Assembly (NCBI GenBank): GCA_018268955.1
Contig: JAFDVO010000038.1
Span: 1 to 64,000, forward strand
Length of the DNA: 64,000 nucleotides
Origin: Acidobacteriota bacterium
Lineage (GTDB): Bacteria; Acidobacteriota; Vicinamibacteria; Vicinamibacterales; CAVVIG01
Reading direction: 5' to 3'
The notes beneath the pieces were generated by a model. The model ran no database searches. It saw nothing but the letters and a program-made list of their open reading frames with translations, and was not told where the DNA came from. Numbering within the stretch: position 1 is the stretch's first letter; each line of letters opens with the position of its first letter. Of the stretch, positions 2,981-34,951 are shown one piece after another. A program made the translations under genes and the position numbers.

Positions 2981-4807
2981 ATGTCCGTAGCAAATCCCTT
3001 CAGACGTAATGTCGCCATCATCGCGCACGTCGACCACGGCAAGACGACCCTGGTCGATGCGCTGCTGCACCAGAGCGGGACGTTCCGCGCCAACGAGCGG
3101 GTCGCCGAACGCGCGATGGACAGCAACGAGCTCGAGCGTGAGCGCGGCATCACCATCCTCGCCAAGAACACCGCGGTCCACTACAACGACCTGCTGATCA
3201 ACATCTGCGATACGCCGGGGCACGCGGACTTCGGCGGCGAGGTCGAGCGGACGCTGTCGATGGTGGACGGCGTGATGCTGCTCGTCGACGCGTCGGAAGG
3301 GCCGCTGCCGCAGACCCGGTTCGTGCTCCGCAAGGCGCTCGAGCGCCGGCTGCCACCGATCGTGGTCATCAACAAGATCGACCGCCCGGACGCCCGGCCG
3401 CAGGAAGTGCTGAACGAGGTGTACGACCTCTTCATCGACCTTGACGCGTCTGAAGAGGCGCTCGAGTTCCCGGTGCTCTACACGAACGCGAAGGCGGGGA
3501 CGGCGACCACGGACCAGAAGGGTGGCGGGGAGGACCTCAGGCCGCTGTTCGATGCGATCGTCGCCCACGTGCCGCCGCCGAAGGGCGACCCGGACGGGTC
3601 GCTCCAGCTGCTCGTCGCCAACCTCGACTCCAGCGAGTACGTGGGACGGATCGCGATCGGCCGCATCTTCAACGGTCGCGTGAAGATCAACGATCCGGTG
3701 TCGGTCTGCAAGCTCGATGGCACGATTCAGAGCACGAAGGTGACGAAGCTCTACGCCTTCGACGGGTTGAAGCGCGTCGACATCGAGGAAGCGGCCGCCG
3801 GCGACATCGTGTGCCTCGCCGGCATTGCGGACATCACGATTGGCGAGACGATCGCCAGCGGTGAGAACCCGAAGCCGATCCCCCCGATTGCGATCGACGA
3901 ACCGACGGTCTCGATGATCTTCGGCGTCAACACATCGCCGCTGTCCGGTCGCGACGGGCAGTACGTGACGTCACGGCAGTTGAAGGATCGCCTCGACCGC
4001 GAACTGCTCGGCAATGTGTCCATCCGCATGGAGCCGACCGAGACGCCCGAGCAGATGCGGATCATCGGCCGTGGTGAGCTCCAGCTGGCCATCCTCATCG
4101 AGATGATGCGCCGCGAGGGGTACGAGCTGCAGGTCTCCCGTCCGGACATCGTGACCAAGACGGTCGACGGCGTGCTGATGGAGCCGGTCGAGCTGCTCGT
4201 GATCGACGTCCCCGAGGATCACCAGGGCGTCGTCATTGCGAACGTCGGCGAGCGCCGCGGCGTGATGAGCAAGATGGTGAACAACGGCAGCGGCCGTGTC
4301 CGCCTCGAGTTCCGCATCCCGGCCCGCGGCCTCATCGGGTTCCGCTCGCAGTTCATGACCGACACGAAGGGCACCGGCATCATGAACCACATCTTCGACA
4401 GCTGGGAGCCGTGGCACGGTGCGATCCCGGCCCGCGCCACCGGCGCGCTGGTTGCAGACAGGTCGGGTGTGGCGACGGCCTACGCCTTGTACAACATCCA
4501 GGAGCGCGGGGAAGTGTTCATCGACCCGGGCGTCACGGTGTACGAGGGCATGATCATCGGCGAGAACTCGCGCGCGAGCGACATGGACGTCAACATCACC
4601 AAAGAGAAGAAGCAGACGAACATGCGCGCGTCCACGGCAGACGAGGCGATCCGCCTCATCCCGCCACGGAAGCTGAGCCTCGAGCAGGCCATCGAGTTCA
4701 TCAATGACGATGAGCTGGTCGAGGTGACGCCGAACAACATCCGGCTGCGCAAGCGGGTCCTCGCAGCGAACATGCGGCCCAAGAAGCAGGGCGCCGGGCC
4801 CGAGTAG
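2981..4807 (+). CDS. typA: TypA/BipA ribosome-associated translational GTPase
   Basis: 608 aa, the normal length for TypA. The G1 loop AHVDHGKTT is at residues 15-23, the switch region contains RERGITI near 54-60, G3 DTPGH is at 77-81, and G4 NKID is at 131-134. The EF-G-like domains III and V and the TypA-specific C-terminal domain follow. TypA binds the 70S ribosome and assists ribosome assembly and stress adaptation. All GTPase motifs are intact. Glucoamylase-like and downstream genes follow with very short gaps, so they may be read on the same transcript. Confidence 0.97.
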
Positions 4808-4814
4808 CGCACCA

Positions 4815-6641
4815 GTGGCAGACGGCGGTTACCGGCCCATCCGCGATCACGCGATCATCGGAGACGGCCGGACCGCCGCGCTTGTCACGACCGACGGCAC
4901 GGTCGACTGGCTCTGCCTGCCGGACTTCGACGCGCCGAGCGTCTTCGGCTCCATCCTCGACTCGCAGCATGGCGGCTCGTTCACCCTCGCGCCCGCCGTT
5001 CCCTTCCAGTCCCACCAGCACTACACACCCGACACGAACATCCTCGAGACACGCTTCACGACCAGCACGGGGGCCGTGCGCGTCGTCGACGCGCTGACCT
5101 TGCCGAACGACCGTCTCTGCGGACAGCGCGAGCTCGTCCGCATCGTCGAGTGCCTCGAGGGCGAGGTGCCGCTGGCGTGGGCAATCGAGCCGCGGTTCGG
5201 GTACGGGGCGCGCAGCGGGACACCCGCCGACGCGGGACCGGCGGCCGTGTGGCGAGACGATGTGGATGCGCTCGCGGCGCGCAGTTGGGAACTCGGCGCT
5301 CCCACGTGGCACGGCGGTGCGACGTGGGCTGCGACGTGCCGCATGCACGCAGGTCAGCGCGGTGTGATCGCGATCTCGTGGGCAACCGGCGAGCCGCTGG
5401 TGTTTCCGACGAGAGCCGGAGTCGAGGAGCGCCTGCTGGGGACCGAGCAGTTCTGGAAGCACTGGGCGGGGGAGCGGCCGTATGCCGGGCCGTTCAGGGA
5501 AGCGGTCATTCGAAGCGCACTTGCGCTGAAGCTGATGATCTACGCGCCGAGCGGCGCGTCGGTGGCCGCGCCGACGGCGTCGCTGCCCGAGGAGATCGGC
5601 GGGGTGCGGAACTGGGACTACCGATTCTGCTGGATCAGGGATTCGGCGTTCCTCATCGACGCGCTGCTGCGCCTCGGCTGCCGTGAAGAAGCGCGCGCGC
5701 TGTTCTGGTGGTTCATGCAGGCGACCACCCTCACCGCTCCGAGGCTCCAGGTGCTCTACCGGCTCGACGGAAGCGACGACGCGGCCGAGCGTACGCTGCC
5801 GCTCGACGGCTACTGTGGGTCGCGGCCGGTGCGCATCGGGAACGCGGCTGTGGACCAGCACCAGCTGGATCTCTACGGCGATCTCTTCGAGACCATCTGG
5901 CTCTACGCGAAGGGCGAGCACGAACTGGATCGCGACACAGGCGTGCGCGTCGCGGACATGGCTGACTACATCTGCGAGATCTGGCGACACCCTGATGCGG
6001 GCATCTGGGAAGTGCGCGGCGACGCGAGGCACTTCACGCACTCCAAGGTGATGTGCTGGGTCGCCCTCGATCGGGCCATCCGCCTCGCCGATGAGGGAGA
6101 CGTGCCGTCACGGCGCGTCGACCGGTGGCGTGCCGAAGCGGCGGCCATCGTGTCGTTCGTGGACGAGCAGTGCTGGAGTGACGAGAAGCGCTCCTACGTG
6201 CAGCACGCCGGAGGCGAGTCCGTGGACGCGAGTCTCCTGATGCTGTCGCTGATGGGATTCGGCGGGAATGCGAGCCCTCGCGTGATGGGGACGGTCGACG
6301 CGGTATGCCGCGAACTCCGCCGCGGGCCGTTCGTGTTCCGCTACCTGAACGAGGATGGCCTCCCCGGGTCGGAAGGCTGTTTCCTCAACTGCTCCTTCTG
6401 GCTGGTTGGCGCCCTGGCGCGCGTCGGTCGCCTGGACGAGGCGAACGCCTTGATGACCGACCTGCTCGCACGGGGCAACCACGTTGGACTGTTCGCCGAG
6501 GAGATCGATCCCGCCACCGGTGCGTTCCTCGGCAACTTCCCGCAGGCGCTCGTCCATCTCTCGTTGATCGATGCCGCGCTGGCGATCGGCGAGGCGGAGC
6601 AGACGAGCCAGGGCCCGAAGAAGGGGAAGGCGAGCGCATGA
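4815..6641 (+). CDS. Glycoside hydrolase family 15 protein (glucoamylase/trehalase-like), 608 aa
   Basis: The N-terminal super-sandwich domain contains the family signature DWLCLPDFDAPSVF at about residues 31-44. The (alpha/alpha)6 barrel carries NWDYRFCWIRDS around 263-275 and SEGCFLNCSFWLV around 517-530, where the Glu of SEG is the likely catalytic base. No signal peptide is seen, so it is probably cytosolic, like many bacterial GH15 enzymes that trim storage glucans or hydrolyse trehalose. The GTG start is 7 nt after the typA stop, and the stop overlaps the next gene by 4 nt (ATGA), indicating one transcription unit. Whether it acts on glucan or trehalose cannot be told from the sequence. 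Confidence 0.9.
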   Translation: MADGGYRPIRDHAIIGDGRTAALVTTDGTVDWLCLPDFDAPSVFGSILDSQHGGSFTLAPAVPFQSHQHYTPDTNILETRFTTSTGAVRVVDALTLPNDRLCGQRELVRIVECLEGEVPLAWAIEPRFGYGARSGTPADAGPAAVWRDDVDALAARSWELGAPTWHGGATWAATCRMHAGQRGVIAISWATGEPLVFPTRAGVEERLLGTEQFWKHWAGERPYAGPFREAVIRSALALKLMIYAPSGASVAAPTASLPEEIGGVRNWDYRFCWIRDSAFLIDALLRLGCREEARALFWWFMQATTLTAPRLQVLYRLDGSDDAAERTLPLDGYCGSRPVRIGNAAVDQHQLDLYGDLFETIWLYAKGEHELDRDTGVRVADMADYICEIWRHPDAGIWEVRGDARHFTHSKVMCWVALDRAIRLADEGDVPSRRVDRWRAEAAAIVSFVDEQCWSDEKRSYVQHAGGESVDASLLMLSLMGFGGNASPRVMGTVDAVCRELRRGPFVFRYLNEDGLPGSEGCFLNCSFWLVGALARVGRLDEANALMTDLLARGNHVGLFAEEIDPATGAFLGNFPQALVHLSLIDAALAIGEAEQTSQGPKKGKASA

Positions 6642-29276: not shown

Positions 29277-29675
29277 TCAGCGGGCGCTCACGTAGAACGT
29301 TGCCATGGCAACAAGCGCGCAGGCGATGGTACCCCACGCGATGTCCGCAATGGTGACGATGACCGGCCACTGGGCGAGCGTGGCGTAGTTGGTAAGGTCG
29401 TAGACGCCGTACACGACCAGGCCGAGCAAGGCGCCCCACGCTGCGGCGCCCGCGAGCGATTCGGCTCGCGGCACGGCGAGCGCGGCAACACCCAGGCCCA
29501 GCAGCACGTAGACGAGTGCCGCCGCCGGCCAGATCGGTGCGAGGCTGCCATCGACGATCCGGCCGATCGAGGCGAACTGCCTGACGTAGAAGTCCTTCAT
29601 GACCACGCCGAGCCACAGTCCATCGAGCACAAGGAAGCCGAGAATCGAGACGCCTATCGAGAGAAGTGAGGGCAC
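29277..29675 (-). CDS. DUF2177 family membrane protein, 132 aa
   Basis: Four hydrophobic helices and the family patterns FLVLDGLWLGVVMKDFY near the N-terminus and VYGVYDLTNYATL in the third segment. DUF2177 proteins are found beside cyclopropane-fatty-acid-synthase-like and DUF1295 genes in light- or singlet-oxygen-induced clusters of many bacteria; their reaction is unknown. It starts at GTG 29675, 3 nt past the preceding stop, and ends 1 nt before an alternative CarH start, so coupling is tight. Confidence 0.87.
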   Translation of the reverse strand: MPSLLSIGVSILGFLVLDGLWLGVVMKDFYVRQFASIGRIVDGSLAPIWPAAALVYVLLGLGVAALAVPRAESLAGAAAWGALLGLVVYGVYDLTNYATLAQWPVIVTIADIAWGTIACALVAMATFYVSAR

Positions 29676-29678
29676 AGG

Positions 29679-30728
29679 TCAGCCTTTCCGCACGAAGCGG
29701 TAGTGCGAGACGAACCATTCGCGGCCGTCCTGATAGCGGAACAGTTCAGCACACGCCATGAAGAAGATGCGCCAGCGTGCCCGCCACCGCCGCACGTCCC
29801 GGGCGGTGGTCTGAGGAGACGTCGCGTAGGTGGAGGCGAGGATGCGGTCGATTGGCGCGCGGGCCGCGTCCATGTTGGCCAGCCAGGCATCGCACGTTTT
29901 CGCGTAGTGCTCGCCGTTCACCTGCCAGTGCGCCTCCAGCGCCATGTGCTCCTGGAAATGCAGCAGCAGGTCGTCGCTCGGCATCGTGCCGCCGGTGAAG
30001 AAATGCTCCGCCATCCAGTCGGAGGCGTCGCGGGCCTCGAAGGGATAGGCGTATTCGCGATGCGCGAAGATGTGGACGAACAGCCGTCCCCGCGGCGCCA
30101 GCCACGAGTGGATGCGTTCGAGCAGACGTCCGTAGTTGCGCATGTGCTCGAACATCTCGACGGACACCACGCGATCGAACGGCCCGCCGTCCGCCGGCTC
30201 GAAGGCATTCATGTCGGCCGTGACGACCCTGACGTTGCGCAGCCCCCGATCGGCCGCGCACTGCTCGATGAACGTTCGCTGCGAATGTGAATTCGACACC
30301 GCCACGATCTCGCTGGTGGGGAAGCGCTGCGCCATGTAGAGCGTCAGCGATCCCCAGCCGCACCCGAGCTCGAGGATGCGGTGGCCGTTCTCGATTGCGG
30401 CGCGCTCCACCGTGAGCCGCAGCATCGCCTCCTCGGCCGCGTCGAGCGTCGTCGTGCCGGGCTCCCACAGGCCGCTGCTGTATTTCAGGTGTGGGCCGAG
30501 GACGTGATGGAAGAAGGCGGCGGGCACCTCGTAGTGCTGGACGTTGGCGGCCTCCGTATGAATGGCGATCGGGCTGCGCTTCAGCTCGTCGATGAAGGCG
30601 GCCTTCCGATTGAGGCGCGACTCCTCGCGCAGGCGCACCCGGAGCAGGGAGCGGATGCCCGCCCGGACGATGGGGTCGGGCACGAGGTTCTGCTCGAGCA
30701 GCGGTTCGTACCAGGCTGTGGTTTTCAT
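29679..30728 (-). CDS. Cyclopropane-fatty-acid-synthase family SAM methyltransferase (paralogue 1), 349 aa
   Basis: The ATG at 30728 overlaps the DUF1295 stop by 4 nt. The N-terminal MKTTAWYEPLLEQNLVPDP is followed by VQHYEVPAAFFHHVLGPHL, the Mycolic_cyclopropane_synthase start motif. The SAM motif ILELGCGWGSLTLYMAQ comes next, then VVSVEMFEHMRNY. The protein ends RFVRKG. Members transfer a methyl group from SAM to double bonds of membrane fatty acyl chains, making cyclopropane or related branched or furan precursors. This one is shorter at the N-terminus than the paralogue at 33668 and may use a different lipid substrate (inference). Confidence 0.88.
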   Translation of the reverse strand: MKTTAWYEPLLEQNLVPDPIVRAGIRSLLRVRLREESRLNRKAAFIDELKRSPIAIHTEAANVQHYEVPAAFFHHVLGPHLKYSSGLWEPGTTTLDAAEEAMLRLTVERAAIENGHRILELGCGWGSLTLYMAQRFPTSEIVAVSNSHSQRTFIEQCAADRGLRNVRVVTADMNAFEPADGGPFDRVVSVEMFEHMRNYGRLLERIHSWLAPRGRLFVHIFAHREYAYPFEARDASDWMAEHFFTGGTMPSDDLLLHFQEHMALEAHWQVNGEHYAKTCDAWLANMDAARAPIDRILASTYATSPQTTARDVRRWRARWRIFFMACAELFRYQDGREWFVSHYRFVRKG

Positions 30729-31510
30729 CCTCTCGGCACCCATGGAAAGAAGACACTCGTGGTCTGTTGATAGCGGCGGTAATCGTCGCCGCGGCTGCGG
30801 AGCGCCTGCGCTTCGGTGGCGGGAATGCCCGTGACACGGAAGAGCAGGTAGAGCATGGCGAGCGGGCAGGCGAGCGCGAGCACACCCCACGGCGACGCCG
30901 CGGCAAACGCCGCGTAGGCGACCCACATCAGCCACTCGAAGAAGTAGTTGGGATGGCGGGAGTAGCGCCAGAGACCGACGCGGCACGTGCGCCCCCGGTT
31001 TGCCGCATCCGCCTTGAAGGCTTCCAGCTGGCGGTCGGCGATCAGTTCACCCGCGAACGCCACGAACCACAGCAGCAGGGCGGACTGTTCCAGCGTCGTG
31101 AGGCCCACGTGCGGATTCGACGCCGCGAGCCACGCCGGGAGCGCGAAGAAGACCGCCGCGATCGCCTGCGCCTGGAAGAACCAGAAGAAACGCGCATCCG
31201 CTGCGGCGCCCCACGCCTGCCGGAGTTGCGCGTAGCGTCCGTCCTCTGGGCGACCAACGATGCGGTCGCGGAGCAGGTAGGTCCCCAGCCGAAGACTCCA
31301 CACGCCGACCACGACCGCAATCGCGACGCGGCGGCCAACCCACCCTGAGGACAGCACGCCCGCCACCGCCGCCAGGGCGCCGACCGCAAACACCCATCCC
31401 GCATCCACGATGCCCGCGTTGCGTGTCCGCACCTGCACCGCCCAGAGGGCCGTCATGCCCACGCTCACCGCGAGCAGCCCGCCCAGCGCGAGCTGTACCG
31501 TCGTCCACAT
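30725..31510 (-). CDS. DUF1295 family membrane protein (steroid 5-alpha-reductase-like), 261 aa
   Basis: Hydrophobic throughout with six to seven helices. The C-terminal signature LWRYSRHPNYFFEWLMWVAY is typical of DUF1295 and resembles the isoprenylcysteine methyltransferase/steroid reductase fold that binds a lipid tail. The reaction is unproven; reduction of an unsaturated lipid is plausible. I prefer ATG 31510 because the TATCAT box at 31523-31518 ends 7 nt upstream, making the message leaderless; ATG 31519 overlaps the box itself. It leads the minus-strand operon of the light locus. Confidence 0.84.
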   Translation of the reverse strand: MWTTVQLALGGLLAVSVGMTALWAVQVRTRNAGIVDAGWVFAVGALAAVAGVLSSGWVGRRVAIAVVVGVWSLRLGTYLLRDRIVGRPEDGRYAQLRQAWGAAADARFFWFFQAQAIAAVFFALPAWLAASNPHVGLTTLEQSALLLWFVAFAGELIADRQLEAFKADAANRGRTCRVGLWRYSRHPNYFFEWLMWVAYAAFAAASPWGVLALACPLAMLYLLFRVTGIPATEAQALRSRGDDYRRYQQTTSVFFPWVPRG

Positions 31511-31517
31511 GTCGTCC

Positions 31518-31546
31518 ATGATATGTCATGGACAAACACTTGACAA
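31518..31546 (-). promoter_or_regulatory. Sigma70-type promoter of the minus-strand half of the light locus
   Basis: On the minus strand, TTGTCA (31546-31541) and TATCAT (31523-31518) each match the sigma70 consensus at 5 of 6 positions, and the spacer is exactly 17 nt. Transcription would begin near 31511, at the DUF1295 start codon. The -35 box lies inside the three-box operator described separately. The palindrome CCATGA-TATG-TCATGG (31516-31531) overlaps the -10 region. Confidence 0.7.
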
Positions 31547-31556
31547 GTCTTGAACA
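31529..31556. promoter_or_regulatory. Putative CarH operator: three T-N-N-A-C-A boxes at 11-bp spacing
   Basis: On the plus strand, TGGACA (31529-31534), TTGACA (31540-31545) and TGAACA (31551-31556) start exactly 11 nt apart in the same orientation. The middle box can be a plus-strand -35 element and overlaps the minus-strand -35 element. As I recall, structural work on CarH found head-to-tail 11-bp repeats with an nTnnACn core bound by three of the four DNA-binding domains of the tetramer. The fit to that layout, next to a CarH-type gene cluster, is strong but binding is inferred. Confidence 0.68.
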
Positions 31557-31579
31557 GTCTGGCAGTCTCTCAACCACAG

Positions 31580-32830
31580 ATGAAGCGCATTGCTGTCGTC
31601 GGAAGCGGGATCGCAGGTCTCTCCGCGGCGTGGCTCCTGAGCCGCCGCCACGAAGTGCACCTGTTCGAGCGGGACACCCGACTCGGTGGGCACACCCACA
31701 CGGTGCTCGCGGAGAGTTCGAGCGGTCCCGTGGCGCTCGACACCGGGTTCCTCGTGCACAACGACCGCACCTACCCGCGTCTGGTGCGGCTGTTCCGTGA
31801 AATCGGGATCGACACCATCGATTCGGACATGTGCTTTGCGGTCGCGTGCGCGGGCACCGGCCTCGAGTACAGCAGCCGCGGCGCGCGCGGCTTCTTCGCG
31901 CAGCCGCGGAACCTCCTGAATCCCGCACACTTCGGCCTGCTCTCGGAGATCGTCCGGTTCAACCGCGAGGCCCCGCGGCTCCTGAACCGTCCGGACGCTG
32001 ACAGCCTCACGCTTGGTGAGTTCCTCGACGCCCGTCGCTTCAGTGAGGTGTTCACGCACCGGTACCTGCTGCCGATGGCCTCGGCGATCTGGTCGGCCTC
32101 GCTCGCGTCGATCAGGGCCTTCCCGGCGCTCACGATGATCCGGTTTCTCGACAATCACGGTCTGCTCGCCATCACGGGGCAACCGGTGTGGAAGGTGGTC
32201 AAGGGGGGAAGCCACACCTACATCCCGAAGCTGACGGCGCCACTGGGGCAGCGGATCACGACCGGCGTCACGATTGCGGGCATTGCGCGGGACGAGCAGG
32301 GGGTCACGTTGCGCTTTACCGACCGGCCCACGCTGCGTGTCGACGACGTGGTGCTCGCGTGCCACGGCGATCAGGTGCTGCCGTTGCTCGACGACGCGAC
32401 CGACACCGAGCGCGACGTGTTCGGCAGCTTCCGCACGACGACGAACCACGCGTGGCTGCACACCGACGCGTCCGTGCTGCCGACCAGGGAAGCGGCGCGT
32501 GCGTCGTGGAACTACAGGCTCAACGGCGAGACCGATACGGCGCCGATGGTGACCTACGACCTCAATCGCCTGCAGGGGCTCGACACGCGGGAGCAGTTCT
32601 GCGTGACGCTGAACCCGAGCGGCGCGATAGACGACCGGAAGGTGATTCGCAAGATCGTCTACCAGCATCCGCTCTACGACCGTGCGGCGATTCAGGCGCA
32701 GGCACGATGGGATGCCGTGAGCGGCGTGCGGCGCACGCACTTCTGCGGCGCCTACTGGTTCTATGGATTCCACGAGGACGGCCTGCGGTCGGCCGTGCGG
32801 GTCGCCAATGCACTGGGGGTCGAGTGGTGA
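31580..32830 (+). CDS. FAD-dependent amine-oxidase-type oxidoreductase of the light locus, 416 aa
   Basis: The start ATG 31580 gives the dinucleotide-binding motif at once: KRIAVVGSGIAGLSAAWLL, followed by the ERDTRLGGHTHT segment. The C-terminal HFCGAYWFYGFHEDGLRSA supplies FAD contacts. This flavoprotein is typically encoded with DUF1365 and a cyclopropane-fatty-acid-synthase homologue. In some alphaproteobacteria related genes take part in singlet-oxygen-induced furan fatty-acid formation (family knowledge, applied here by inference). It leads the plus-strand half and its stop overlaps the DUF1365 start. Confidence 0.88.
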   Translation: MKRIAVVGSGIAGLSAAWLLSRRHEVHLFERDTRLGGHTHTVLAESSSGPVALDTGFLVHNDRTYPRLVRLFREIGIDTIDSDMCFAVACAGTGLEYSSRGARGFFAQPRNLLNPAHFGLLSEIVRFNREAPRLLNRPDADSLTLGEFLDARRFSEVFTHRYLLPMASAIWSASLASIRAFPALTMIRFLDNHGLLAITGQPVWKVVKGGSHTYIPKLTAPLGQRITTGVTIAGIARDEQGVTLRFTDRPTLRVDDVVLACHGDQVLPLLDDATDTERDVFGSFRTTTNHAWLHTDASVLPTREAARASWNYRLNGETDTAPMVTYDLNRLQGLDTREQFCVTLNPSGAIDDRKVIRKIVYQHPLYDRAAIQAQARWDAVSGVRRTHFCGAYWFYGFHEDGLRSAVRVANALGVEW

Positions 32831-33660
32831 GCCTGCCGAAACCGGGTGTCTACGTCGGGACCGTGCGTCATCGACGGACCAGTCCCGTCTCCCACGCCTT
32901 CACGTACCCACTGTTCATGGTGCTGCTCGACGTCGACCGCATCCCCGCGCTGATGCGCGCGTCGCGCCTGACCGGCTACAACCGCTGGAACTGGGCCTCG
33001 TTCCATGAGGCCGATCATCTTGGCGATCCGTCGCGTCCTTTGCGGCAGCGTCTGGCGATGGATGCGGCCGCACACGGCCACACCCTGCCGGACGGTCCGA
33101 TCTTCCTGCTCACCCACCTGCGCTATCTCGGGTACTGCTTCAACCCGGTGTCGTTCTATTACTGCTACGACAGGTCGGAGCAGTTGCGATTGGTGCTGGC
33201 CGAGGTGAACAACACGTTCGGGGGTCACCATCACTACTGGCTGGAACCGTCGCAGGCGCCACCACGCGCCGCCTCGCCGCGATGGCAGCACGCCGAGCCG
33301 CGGACGTACCGGGCGGCGAGCCAGAAGGCGTTCTACGTGTCCCCCTTCATGGCCGCCGACATGACGTATGCGTTCGCGTTCACGGATCCCGGCGAGCGCC
33401 TGTTGATGCACATGTCGCTCGAACGCCTGAGTGCCGCCGAAACGCCGCACGCGTTCGACGCGTCTCTAGTGCTGAACCACCGCCCATGGACCGCGCGCAC
33501 GATCGCCGGAGCGCTCATGCGCTTTCCGATGATGACGGCCTCCGTCATCGCCGCCATTCACTGGGAAGCGGTGAAGCTCTGGTGGAAGGGGTTGCCGATT
33601 GTGCCGCGACCGACTCCTAGCGGAGAGTACTCGGCCACCCCCGGCCCCGTCTGGCAGTGA
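32827..33660 (+). CDS. DUF1365 family protein, 277 aa
   Basis: GTG start overlapping the FAD oxidoreductase stop (GTGA). Family hallmarks: VGTVRHRRTSPVSHAFTYP at the N-terminus, LRYLGYCFNPVSFYYCYD in the middle, and KAFYVSPFMAADMTY. No signal peptide is evident. The biochemical role of DUF1365 is not established, though it is nearly always encoded next to this type of flavoprotein and CFA-synthase-like methyltransferase. A lipid-modification role is inferred from that linkage. Confidence 0.88.
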   Translation: MSLPKPGVYVGTVRHRRTSPVSHAFTYPLFMVLLDVDRIPALMRASRLTGYNRWNWASFHEADHLGDPSRPLRQRLAMDAAAHGHTLPDGPIFLLTHLRYLGYCFNPVSFYYCYDRSEQLRLVLAEVNNTFGGHHHYWLEPSQAPPRAASPRWQHAEPRTYRAASQKAFYVSPFMAADMTYAFAFTDPGERLLMHMSLERLSAAETPHAFDASLVLNHRPWTARTIAGALMRFPMMTASVIAAIHWEAVKLWWKGLPIVPRPTPSGEYSATPGPVWQ

Positions 33661-33667
33661 GCACACC

Positions 33668-34951
33668 ATGACCCTCATCGACACGCTCGCGAAGAAGATG
33701 CTGCTCTCCCGTCTTCCCGATGTGCAGGGAGGCACGTTGAACCTGTGCTCGTCCGCTGGCCTTGCGCGTTTCGGGGATCCCACGTCGCGCCGGTGGACCC
33801 ATGGTGAGCCGCTCGACAGTACAATCGAAGTGCACGACGACCGGTTTTATCGTCGCGCCCTGCTGGCCTCGGACGTCGGCATCGGCGAGTCGTTCATGGA
33901 CGGCGAGTGGACATCGCCAGACGTCGTCGCGCTCACGCGACTGATGATCCGCAACGCCGCGCTCGTGGAGCAGCGTGGTGGCCCCGGTCGCTGGGCGGTA
34001 CGCCTGATGGGAGGCATGGCCAGGCGGCTGCGCGACAACAGCCTCACGGGCAGCCGACGGCACATCCGCGAACACTACGATCTTGGCAACGACTTCTTCC
34101 GCCTCTTCCTCGACGAGCAGCACCTGATGTACTCGTCGGCGTACTTCGAGACCGGGCGCGAAACGCTGGAGCAGGCCCAGCAGAAGAAGCTCGATCTGAT
34201 TTGCCGGAAGCTGGGGCTGGGGCCCGGCGACCACGTGCTCGAGATCGGCACCGGATGGGGTGGGTTCGCCGTCTGGGCCGCGACCAAATACGGCTGCCGC
34301 GTGACCACGACCACGATCAGCGACGAGCAGTACCGGCACGCCTGTGACTGGGTTGCGCGGCTGGGGGACGCGGGATCGCGGATTACCGTGCTGCTGCAGG
34401 ACTACCGTCATCTCGAGGGGCAGTTCGACAAGATCGTCAGCATCGAGATGTTCGAGGCGGTGGGCCTCAATCACTATGACGACTACTTCTCAGCCGTGAA
34501 TCGCCTCCTGGCGCCGAACGGGTCGATGCTGCTCCAGACGATCACGGTCGACGACCAGCACTTCCCGCACTACCACGGCCAGCCGGACTGGATCGAGAAG
34601 TACATCTTCCCCGGGGGCGAACTCGCCTCGGTCGGCCAGATCCTCGGGTCGCTGTCCCGCGTCACCTCGATGTCGGTCTACCACGCCGAGAACTTCGGCA
34701 CCCACTACGCCAGGACGCTTCACGAATGGCGGGCGCGCTTCCACCGGCAGCTCGATCGCGTGCGGGCCATGGGCTTCGGCGAACGCTTCATCCGGATGTG
34801 GGACCTGTATTTCGCGTTCTGCGAGGCGGCGTTCCTCGAGCGGCACGCGGGCGTGTTCCAGCTCGTGTTGAACCGCAACTACAGCAGCGCGCGGCATTTC
34901 AACGAGCCGTGGTCGACGGAGCCGCAGGTCGTGCGTGCGGCGGTGGCCTAG
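33668..34951 (+). CDS. Cyclopropane-fatty-acid-synthase family SAM methyltransferase (paralogue 2), 427 aa
   Basis: A full-length family member. It has a lipid-binding N-terminal domain (about 1-125), then HIREHYDLGNDFFRLF (132-147) and LMYSSAYF, the SAM-binding VLEIGTGWGG (190-199), and a C-terminal region with QLVLNRNYSSARHF. It should methylate or cyclopropanate unsaturated acyl chains of membrane lipids. It ends the plus-strand half of the light locus, 7 nt after DUF1365. Its stop codon directly abuts the stop of the AsmA-like gene on the other strand with no base between. Confidence 0.92.
   Translation: MTLIDTLAKKMLLSRLPDVQGGTLNLCSSAGLARFGDPTSRRWTHGEPLDSTIEVHDDRFYRRALLASDVGIGESFMDGEWTSPDVVALTRLMIRNAALVEQRGGPGRWAVRLMGGMARRLRDNSLTGSRRHIREHYDLGNDFFRLFLDEQHLMYSSAYFETGRETLEQAQQKKLDLICRKLGLGPGDHVLEIGTGWGGFAVWAATKYGCRVTTTTISDEQYRHACDWVARLGDAGSRITVLLQDYRHLEGQFDKIVSIEMFEAVGLNHYDDYFSAVNRLLAPNGSMLLQTITVDDQHFPHYHGQPDWIEKYIFPGGELASVGQILGSLSRVTSMSVYHAENFGTHYARTLHEWRARFHRQLDRVRAMGFGERFIRMWDLYFAFCEAAFLERHAGVFQLVLNRNYSSARHFNEPWSTEPQVVRAAVA

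Follow-up and report, generated by a model that had tools for sequence, protein, structure and literature searches.

A 33-bp dyad was identified in the 70-bp gap between two divergent clusters of lipid genes, and its occurrence in related loci followed that of carH. Very probably, the linked CarH-type regulator uses this dyad as its operator and would repress both lipid operons in the dark and release them in light. Coordinates refer to the window, the whole 64,000-nucleotide stretch of acidobacterial DNA that was analysed (Table 1).

Table 1. Features of the gap and the adjoining genes (c, dyad centre; box 1 to box 3, direct boxes; L049, locus of the same genus)
Feature	Position	Strand	Remarks
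Predicted 33-bp dyad operator CGTCCATGATATGTCATGGACAAACACTTGACA	31513..31545	.	centre T31529; 2 mismatches to the consensus of the relatives
Left outer half-site, TGGACG (minus-strand reading)	31513..31518	-	TnnAC core, degenerate versus TTGACA
Central half-site TGTCATGGACA	31524..31534	.	contains box 1 (TGGACA 31529-31534)
Right outer half-site (box 2), TTGACA	31540..31545	+	also rightward -35; exact in 35/37 relatives
Box 3, TGAACA	31551..31556	+	extra half-site, not conserved
Putative leftward-operon promoter, TTGTCA-N17-TATCAT	31518..31546	-	inside the operator; TTGTCA 31546-31541, TATCAT 31523-31518
Putative rightward-operon promoter, TTGACA-N17-CAGTCT	31540..31568	+	weak -10, preceded by TGG; -10 register matches relatives
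DUF1295 steroid-reductase-like membrane enzyme	30725..31510	-	first gene leftward; alternative in-frame start 31519; ATG at c-19 kept in L049
CFA-synthase-like SAM methyltransferase, first copy	29679..30728	-	
DUF2177 membrane protein	29277..29675	-	
CarH-type regulator, 317 aa	28322..29275	-	MerR DNA-binding and B12-binding domains; WHSGRGRVAHEH, ERHEFG, GERW, GPDMP
FAD amine-oxidoreductase	31580..32830	+	UfaD-like by gene order
DUF1365 protein	32830..33660	+	UfaO-like
CFA synthase/UfaM-like methyltransferase, second copy	33668..34951	+	

Lipid genes and the linked regulator

Leftward from the gap, the gene order was DUF1295, methyltransferase, DUF2177 and MerR/B12 regulator. By domain and gene order, enzymes of the locus resemble UfaD, UfaO and UfaM of furan fatty acid synthesis, for which ufaD, ufaO and ufaM are the genes in Rhodobacter sphaeroides (PMC7380195). 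In the related locus L057, the first gene under the palindrome encoded a fatty acid desaturase (4108-5004), which strengthens the membrane-lipid reading. Other loci had a gap of similar size before the flavoprotein gene. The DUF1295 start lay 10-19 bp from the dyad centre in the window's genus. A start at the ATG at 31510 would give a leaderless DUF1295 message, as judged from the candidate start sites; if translation starts at 31519, the left outer half-site overlaps the first DUF1295 codons.

The regulator was the only homologue found in its genome. Pfam assigned MerR_1 followed by B12-binding_2, the domain composition that defines CarH, and phmmer matched the protein over its full length to the T. 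thermophilus CarH 5c8d (E 1e-25). The published definition of light-responsive CarH proteins comprises Wx9EH, ExHxxG, GxxW, GxxH and GxxxP (PMC8156234, PMC11796333). Wx9EH and E/DxHxxG (PMC8156234) were present as WHSGRGRVAHEH and ERHEFG, and the light signature GxxW, EH, GxxH and GxxxP (PMC11796333) was present as GERW, EH, GERH and GPDMP. More than 90% of the carH-linked proteins kept the CarH light-sensing residues. With 120.7 bits, the regulator scored below the 400-bit cut-off of the NCBIfam CarH equivalog, though this was its best family match; the cut-off is a database naming threshold, not a biological defining feature. The linker between the protein domains was about 16 aa longer in the acidobacterial proteins, with a mean of 121 versus 105 in known CarH. 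Altogether, assignment as a CarH-type regulator with all CarH light-sensing motifs is well supported, and AdoCbl binding and release by light are predicted.

Direct boxes, conserved dyad and promoters

The first-pass annotation had pointed to three boxes in the gap, TGGACA (31529-31534), TTGACA (31540-31545) and TGAACA (31551-31556). They were found exactly there, on one strand and in 11-bp steps. Its estimate that three in-register boxes would rarely arise by chance in a 70-bp gap was confirmed, as only 4 of 20,000 dinucleotide shuffles of the gap yielded three boxes at 11 bp. Two boxes were obtained in 302 of these shuffles and three boxes at any single spacing of 8-24 in 32. The exact pattern matched once in the 64-kb window and never in 100 dinucleotide shuffles; in the 4.77-Mb genome it also matched once, with no match for the reversed-pattern control. 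The three-box observation thus stands. The genome search proposed in the annotation showed that the pattern is not scattered, and the accompanying suggestion that it marks other light genes was not borne out: the site was essentially unique here and stays with carH in relatives.

Taken literally, 31529-31556 has the make-up of a canonical CarH operator, i.e., at least three TnnACA units at 11 bp in one orientation, overlapping -35/-10 elements. In Thermus and Bacillus, CarH operators are tandem arrays of three or four 11-bp repeats (nnnnTnnACAn), and the -35 lies within one of them (PMC9304148). The same scan recovered such repeats at the carH promoters of T. brockianus (TATACA-TTGACA-TAGACA, with the -35 as middle box) and T. 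thermophilus (TGTACA-TTGACA-TATACg). Given the published repeat and its recovery in Thermus, the lead was reasonable.

Homologous loci were gathered via the flavoprotein and their genes were then mapped; many of the compared genomes were fragmented MAGs. L049 (CALQBJ020000072.1), with 80% flavoprotein identity, is labelled Bifidobacterium breve but comes from an acidobacterial MAG in the same genus as the window. The label of L079, Bordetella parapertussis, also looks wrong. When 37 sites were aligned at the box 1 T, the dyad consensus TGTCAA-N5-TGTC-N-T-N-GACA-N5-TTGACA emerged, sharply bounded at c-16 and c+16. Boxes 1 and 2 were the centre and right arm of this dyad, and a mirror-image left half completed the palindrome. 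Columns c-5 to c+5 were near-invariant, c-1 and c+1 excepted. Dyad pairing was found in 68-100% of the 37 sites at offsets 2-7 and 11-16 and was at background elsewhere, except at the -10 positions with 51% at offset 34 and 62% at offset 35. Scored with a matrix trained without the window's genus, the window site reached 44.7 bits and the best unrelated site in the 64 kb reached -18. The left arm was weakened here (CGTCCA, 2 mismatches) and effectively lost in L049 (CGATCA), suggesting that strict symmetry is dispensable in the window's genus. L195 (G108, about 1422-1465) held the same four half-sites with a centre 11 bp longer. Pairs of TnnACA at 11 bp were enriched, with 37 pairs in 33 loci versus 14 in the reversed control. 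Pairs at 18- and 24-bp spacing, also enriched in the loci, were rejected as LitR-type sites; they are conserved coding sequence and belong mainly to the FAD gene.

These data bear on whether the operator consists of the three tandem direct repeats at 31529, 31540 and 31551, to which three domains of a tetramer bind as in T. thermophilus while the left half plays no part. Such an operator would match the published repeat and spacing exactly, would explain an arrangement rare by chance and would have the three-box design of T. brockianus. The degenerate left arm in the window's genus also fits, as does precedent: the CarH operators in the literature consist of direct repeats, and for CarA inverted repeats were once proposed and later dismissed for direct repeats. 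The relatives argue against it. At the register of box 3 (c+22), exact TnnACA was missing in all 37 homologous acidobacterial sites, including L049, and the position carried no information in the alignment. The left half was kept where box 3 was not. No tandem triplet was conserved among orthologous sites, with none in the 56 relatives' loci, and the conserved unit was inverted. Three direct repeats are hence regarded as an unlikely operator. From the CarH-operator fit put forward in the annotation, the 11-bp TnnACA boxes over -35 elements beside a CarH-type regulator were retained, and the three direct boxes as the conserved unit were not.

Box 3 is the least certain part of the three-box observation and at most a helper in the window's genus. 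The sole other site with this extra box was L154 (G091:C17, 4236-4280), where a second carH paralogue was accompanied by the palindrome and a perfect third direct box at c+22. A minus-strand TGGACG at 31502-31507 (c-22) mirrored box 3, and TnnAC cores were present at c-22, c-11, c, c+11 and c+22 of the window site. The c-22 element is coding (ATG-TGG-ACG) and reads TGGACC in L049, and it may thus be a coincidence.

The minus-strand TTGTCA-N17-TATCAT showed 10 of 12 consensus matches and was the only promoter-like match in the region. In the window's genus, this putative leftward promoter has moved into the predicted operator. In relatives, both outer arms were TTGACA -35s of divergent promoters. 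A TAnnnT -10 followed on the carH (minus) side at 17 bp in 27 of the 37 sites and at 18 bp in 7 more; the opposite side showed a weaker TA-rich signal 17 bp out. Because the outer arms are -35s with -10s beyond them, one 33-bp site holds both divergent -35s. Concerning the earlier claim that the middle box is a -35 on both strands, overlap with a -35 was found on each strand, but by consensus the plus-strand promoter is poor, its -10 (CAGTCT) being weak.

Co-occurrence of the dyad with carH

The co-occurrence count covered loci in which 2 kb or more preceded the flavoprotein gene. Of these, 32 of 33 CarH-linked loci had the palindrome (at most 4 mismatches), as against none of 38 loci without carH (Fisher's P 2e-19, kinship ignored). 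On the flavoprotein tree, the joint trait changed 8 times, at least 4 of them forced by supported branches, and palindrome and carH never parted. Since the palindrome adjoins carH, one deletion could remove both, so that sites outside the lipid cluster provide the stronger argument. The order-wide pattern (at most 3 mismatches) was detected in 22 of 162 genomes, with 0 for the reversed-pattern control. The order-wide sites examined adjoined carH or a carH-linked cluster, except for the weak 3-mismatch sites L160 and L161. These two, in G005 and at C40:37394 of the window's own genome, respectively, had no carH-type neighbour in the surrounding sequence retrieved and are probably chance matches.

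Five sites (L152, L153, L154, L157 and L159) were located outside the lipid cluster with carH as the only common neighbour. In L152-L154, the next gene was co-directional with carH, and no divergent promoter is therefore expected; both arms were intact or nearly so. The perfect arm in L152 and L154 was the one not needed as carH -35. Persistence of the dyad beside carH without a divergent gene in these three tandem contexts indicates that the arms are more than promoter parts. It speaks against the symmetry being two back-to-back sigma-70 promoters whose -35s lie 22 bp apart by chance, with CarH reading the centre alone or elsewhere nearby. Such promoters would account for outer arms that equal the -35 consensus and for -10s at 17 bp. 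They would not account for the inner symmetric half (offsets 2-7), which was conserved though it is not promoter sequence, nor for the lack of the palindrome in loci with the same genes but without carH. An origin of the symmetry in promoters is thus considered very unlikely. It is highly improbable that the palindrome serves a different dimeric regulator or a sigma-factor system, unlinked to the cluster but co-evolved with it. Ordinary symmetric dimers usually occupy dyads, and MerR proteins normally bind palindromes (PMC8156234); however, only carH is common to the five sites outside the lipid cluster, and the units and their 11-bp phasing are CarH's.

No palindrome was found near carH in G005, G118 and G121, which are CarH-bearing genomes of the same order; contig ends may account for some of these cases. 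It was also absent from a second, distant CarH-like subfamily with 29-34% identity, of which L201-L204 were examined; in the same order this subfamily was present in G074, G031, G034, G075, G076, G148, G149 and G151. Upstream of the distant CarH-like gene in L204, a TnnACA pair at 11 bp was observed. A Gemmatirosa plasmid (L173, about 3912-3944) carried the palindrome-like TGTCGAGAAATTGTCCAAGACAATATCTTGACA upstream of a CarH-like protein without the W, E and H cobalamin residues; this protein, from a different phylum, may use the same operator independently of B12. A gene for a TonB-dependent receptor was located just downstream of carH in L153 (525-2930, Pfam checked) and also in L156 and L158; the receptor might serve uptake of the chromophore B12 or of a different ligand.

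Proposed mechanism and comparison with known systems

The predicted operator would be built from 11-bp CarH-style units, with a left half-site on the minus strand, a near-symmetric centre and a plus-strand right half-site. AdoCbl-loaded CarH would assemble on the site in the dark and cover both divergent -35s. The carH operon (DUF1295, methyltransferase, DUF2177 and, by autoregulation, carH) and the FAD/DUF1365/CFA operon would then be off. Green, blue or UV light would break the Co-C bond, the oligomer would fall apart and both operons would be made. Their products are predicted to remodel membrane fatty acids by furan-fatty-acid-type enzymes. Dark binding of AdoCbl-CarH and release by light would follow the mechanism known from the family; for this locus, we infer binding, light response, repression and domain geometry.

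One head-to-tail dimer of Thermus CarH bridges repeats 1 and 3, leaving repeat 2 to a single domain of the other dimer (PMC9304148). At the acidobacterial site, the outer half-sites, inverted and 22 bp or two turns apart, would be occupied by both DNA-binding domains of a single head-to-tail dimer; a second dimer would place one domain on the central unit. The site would thus have three 11-bp units in 33 bp as in Thermus, with the first one flipped. The flip would restore two-fold symmetry to the contacts of the first dimer, and the longer linker may permit the dyad geometry. On balance, we lean towards an Acidobacteriota branch of B12 photoreceptors, possibly including Gemmatimonadota, that reads a dyad operator with its outer domains on the inverted half-sites, a third domain at the centre and the longer linker as enabling feature, in place of the symmetry-breaking direct-repeat mode of Thermus. 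One site would then shut two promoters whose -35s are its arms, placing furan-type lipids under B12 light control. A palindromic operator would be new for the CarH family as judged from openly licensed papers, which the literature check covered; a palindromic CarH site may have been reported elsewhere before.

The textbook example of a symmetric repressor reading direct repeats by breaking its own symmetry is CarH, which also serves as an optogenetic part. A conserved mirror-image operator, if true, would mean that both reading modes exist in the CarH family. The way in which linker and assembly determine operator geometry could readily be tested with it, and one compact light-gated switch could control two promoters together. 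The locus further suggests that B12 light sensing governs membrane lipid chemistry, not carotenoids alone, in a large and little-studied soil phylum.

The site has the repeat unit, the 11-bp phasing and the -35 overlap known from CarH, whereas the arrangement differs. Shared with CarH of Thermus thermophilus and Bacillus megaterium are the MerR and B12 domains, Wx9EH, ExHxxG and 11-bp TnnACA units (PMC9304148, PMC8156234), together with the -35 overlap and the divergent gene arrangement. The operators of these two species have 3-4 repeats in one orientation, whereas here a near-symmetric centre is flanked by two inverted outer half-sites; the acidobacterial-type palindrome was absent at the Thermus carH promoters. 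Their CarH targets carotenoid genes, whereas the predicted targets in the window are lipid genes. CarA/CarH of Myxococcus and Sorangium are similar in that a single site over two divergent promoters was proposed for Sorangium and that repeats may be degenerate; unlike the acidobacterial site, a conserved 33-bp dyad is not described for them. Class II LitR (PplR/PmlR) of Pseudomonas also has sites that overlap the -35, and it light-induces ufaM and FAD-oxidoreductase genes. It differs in its site, TGTACA-N12-TGTACA, and in using a separate LOV photoreceptor and no B12, whereas the window protein has B12 residues. The Class II LitR site T(G/A)TACA-N12-TGTA(C/T)A was absent from the 70-bp gap. 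In R. sphaeroides, ufaD, ufaO and ufaM encode the same kinds of proteins, i.e., a flavoprotein, a DUF1365 protein and a CFA-like methylase (PMC7380195). These genes are induced by singlet oxygen through ChrR, whereas the cluster in the window is apparently under a B12 photoreceptor.
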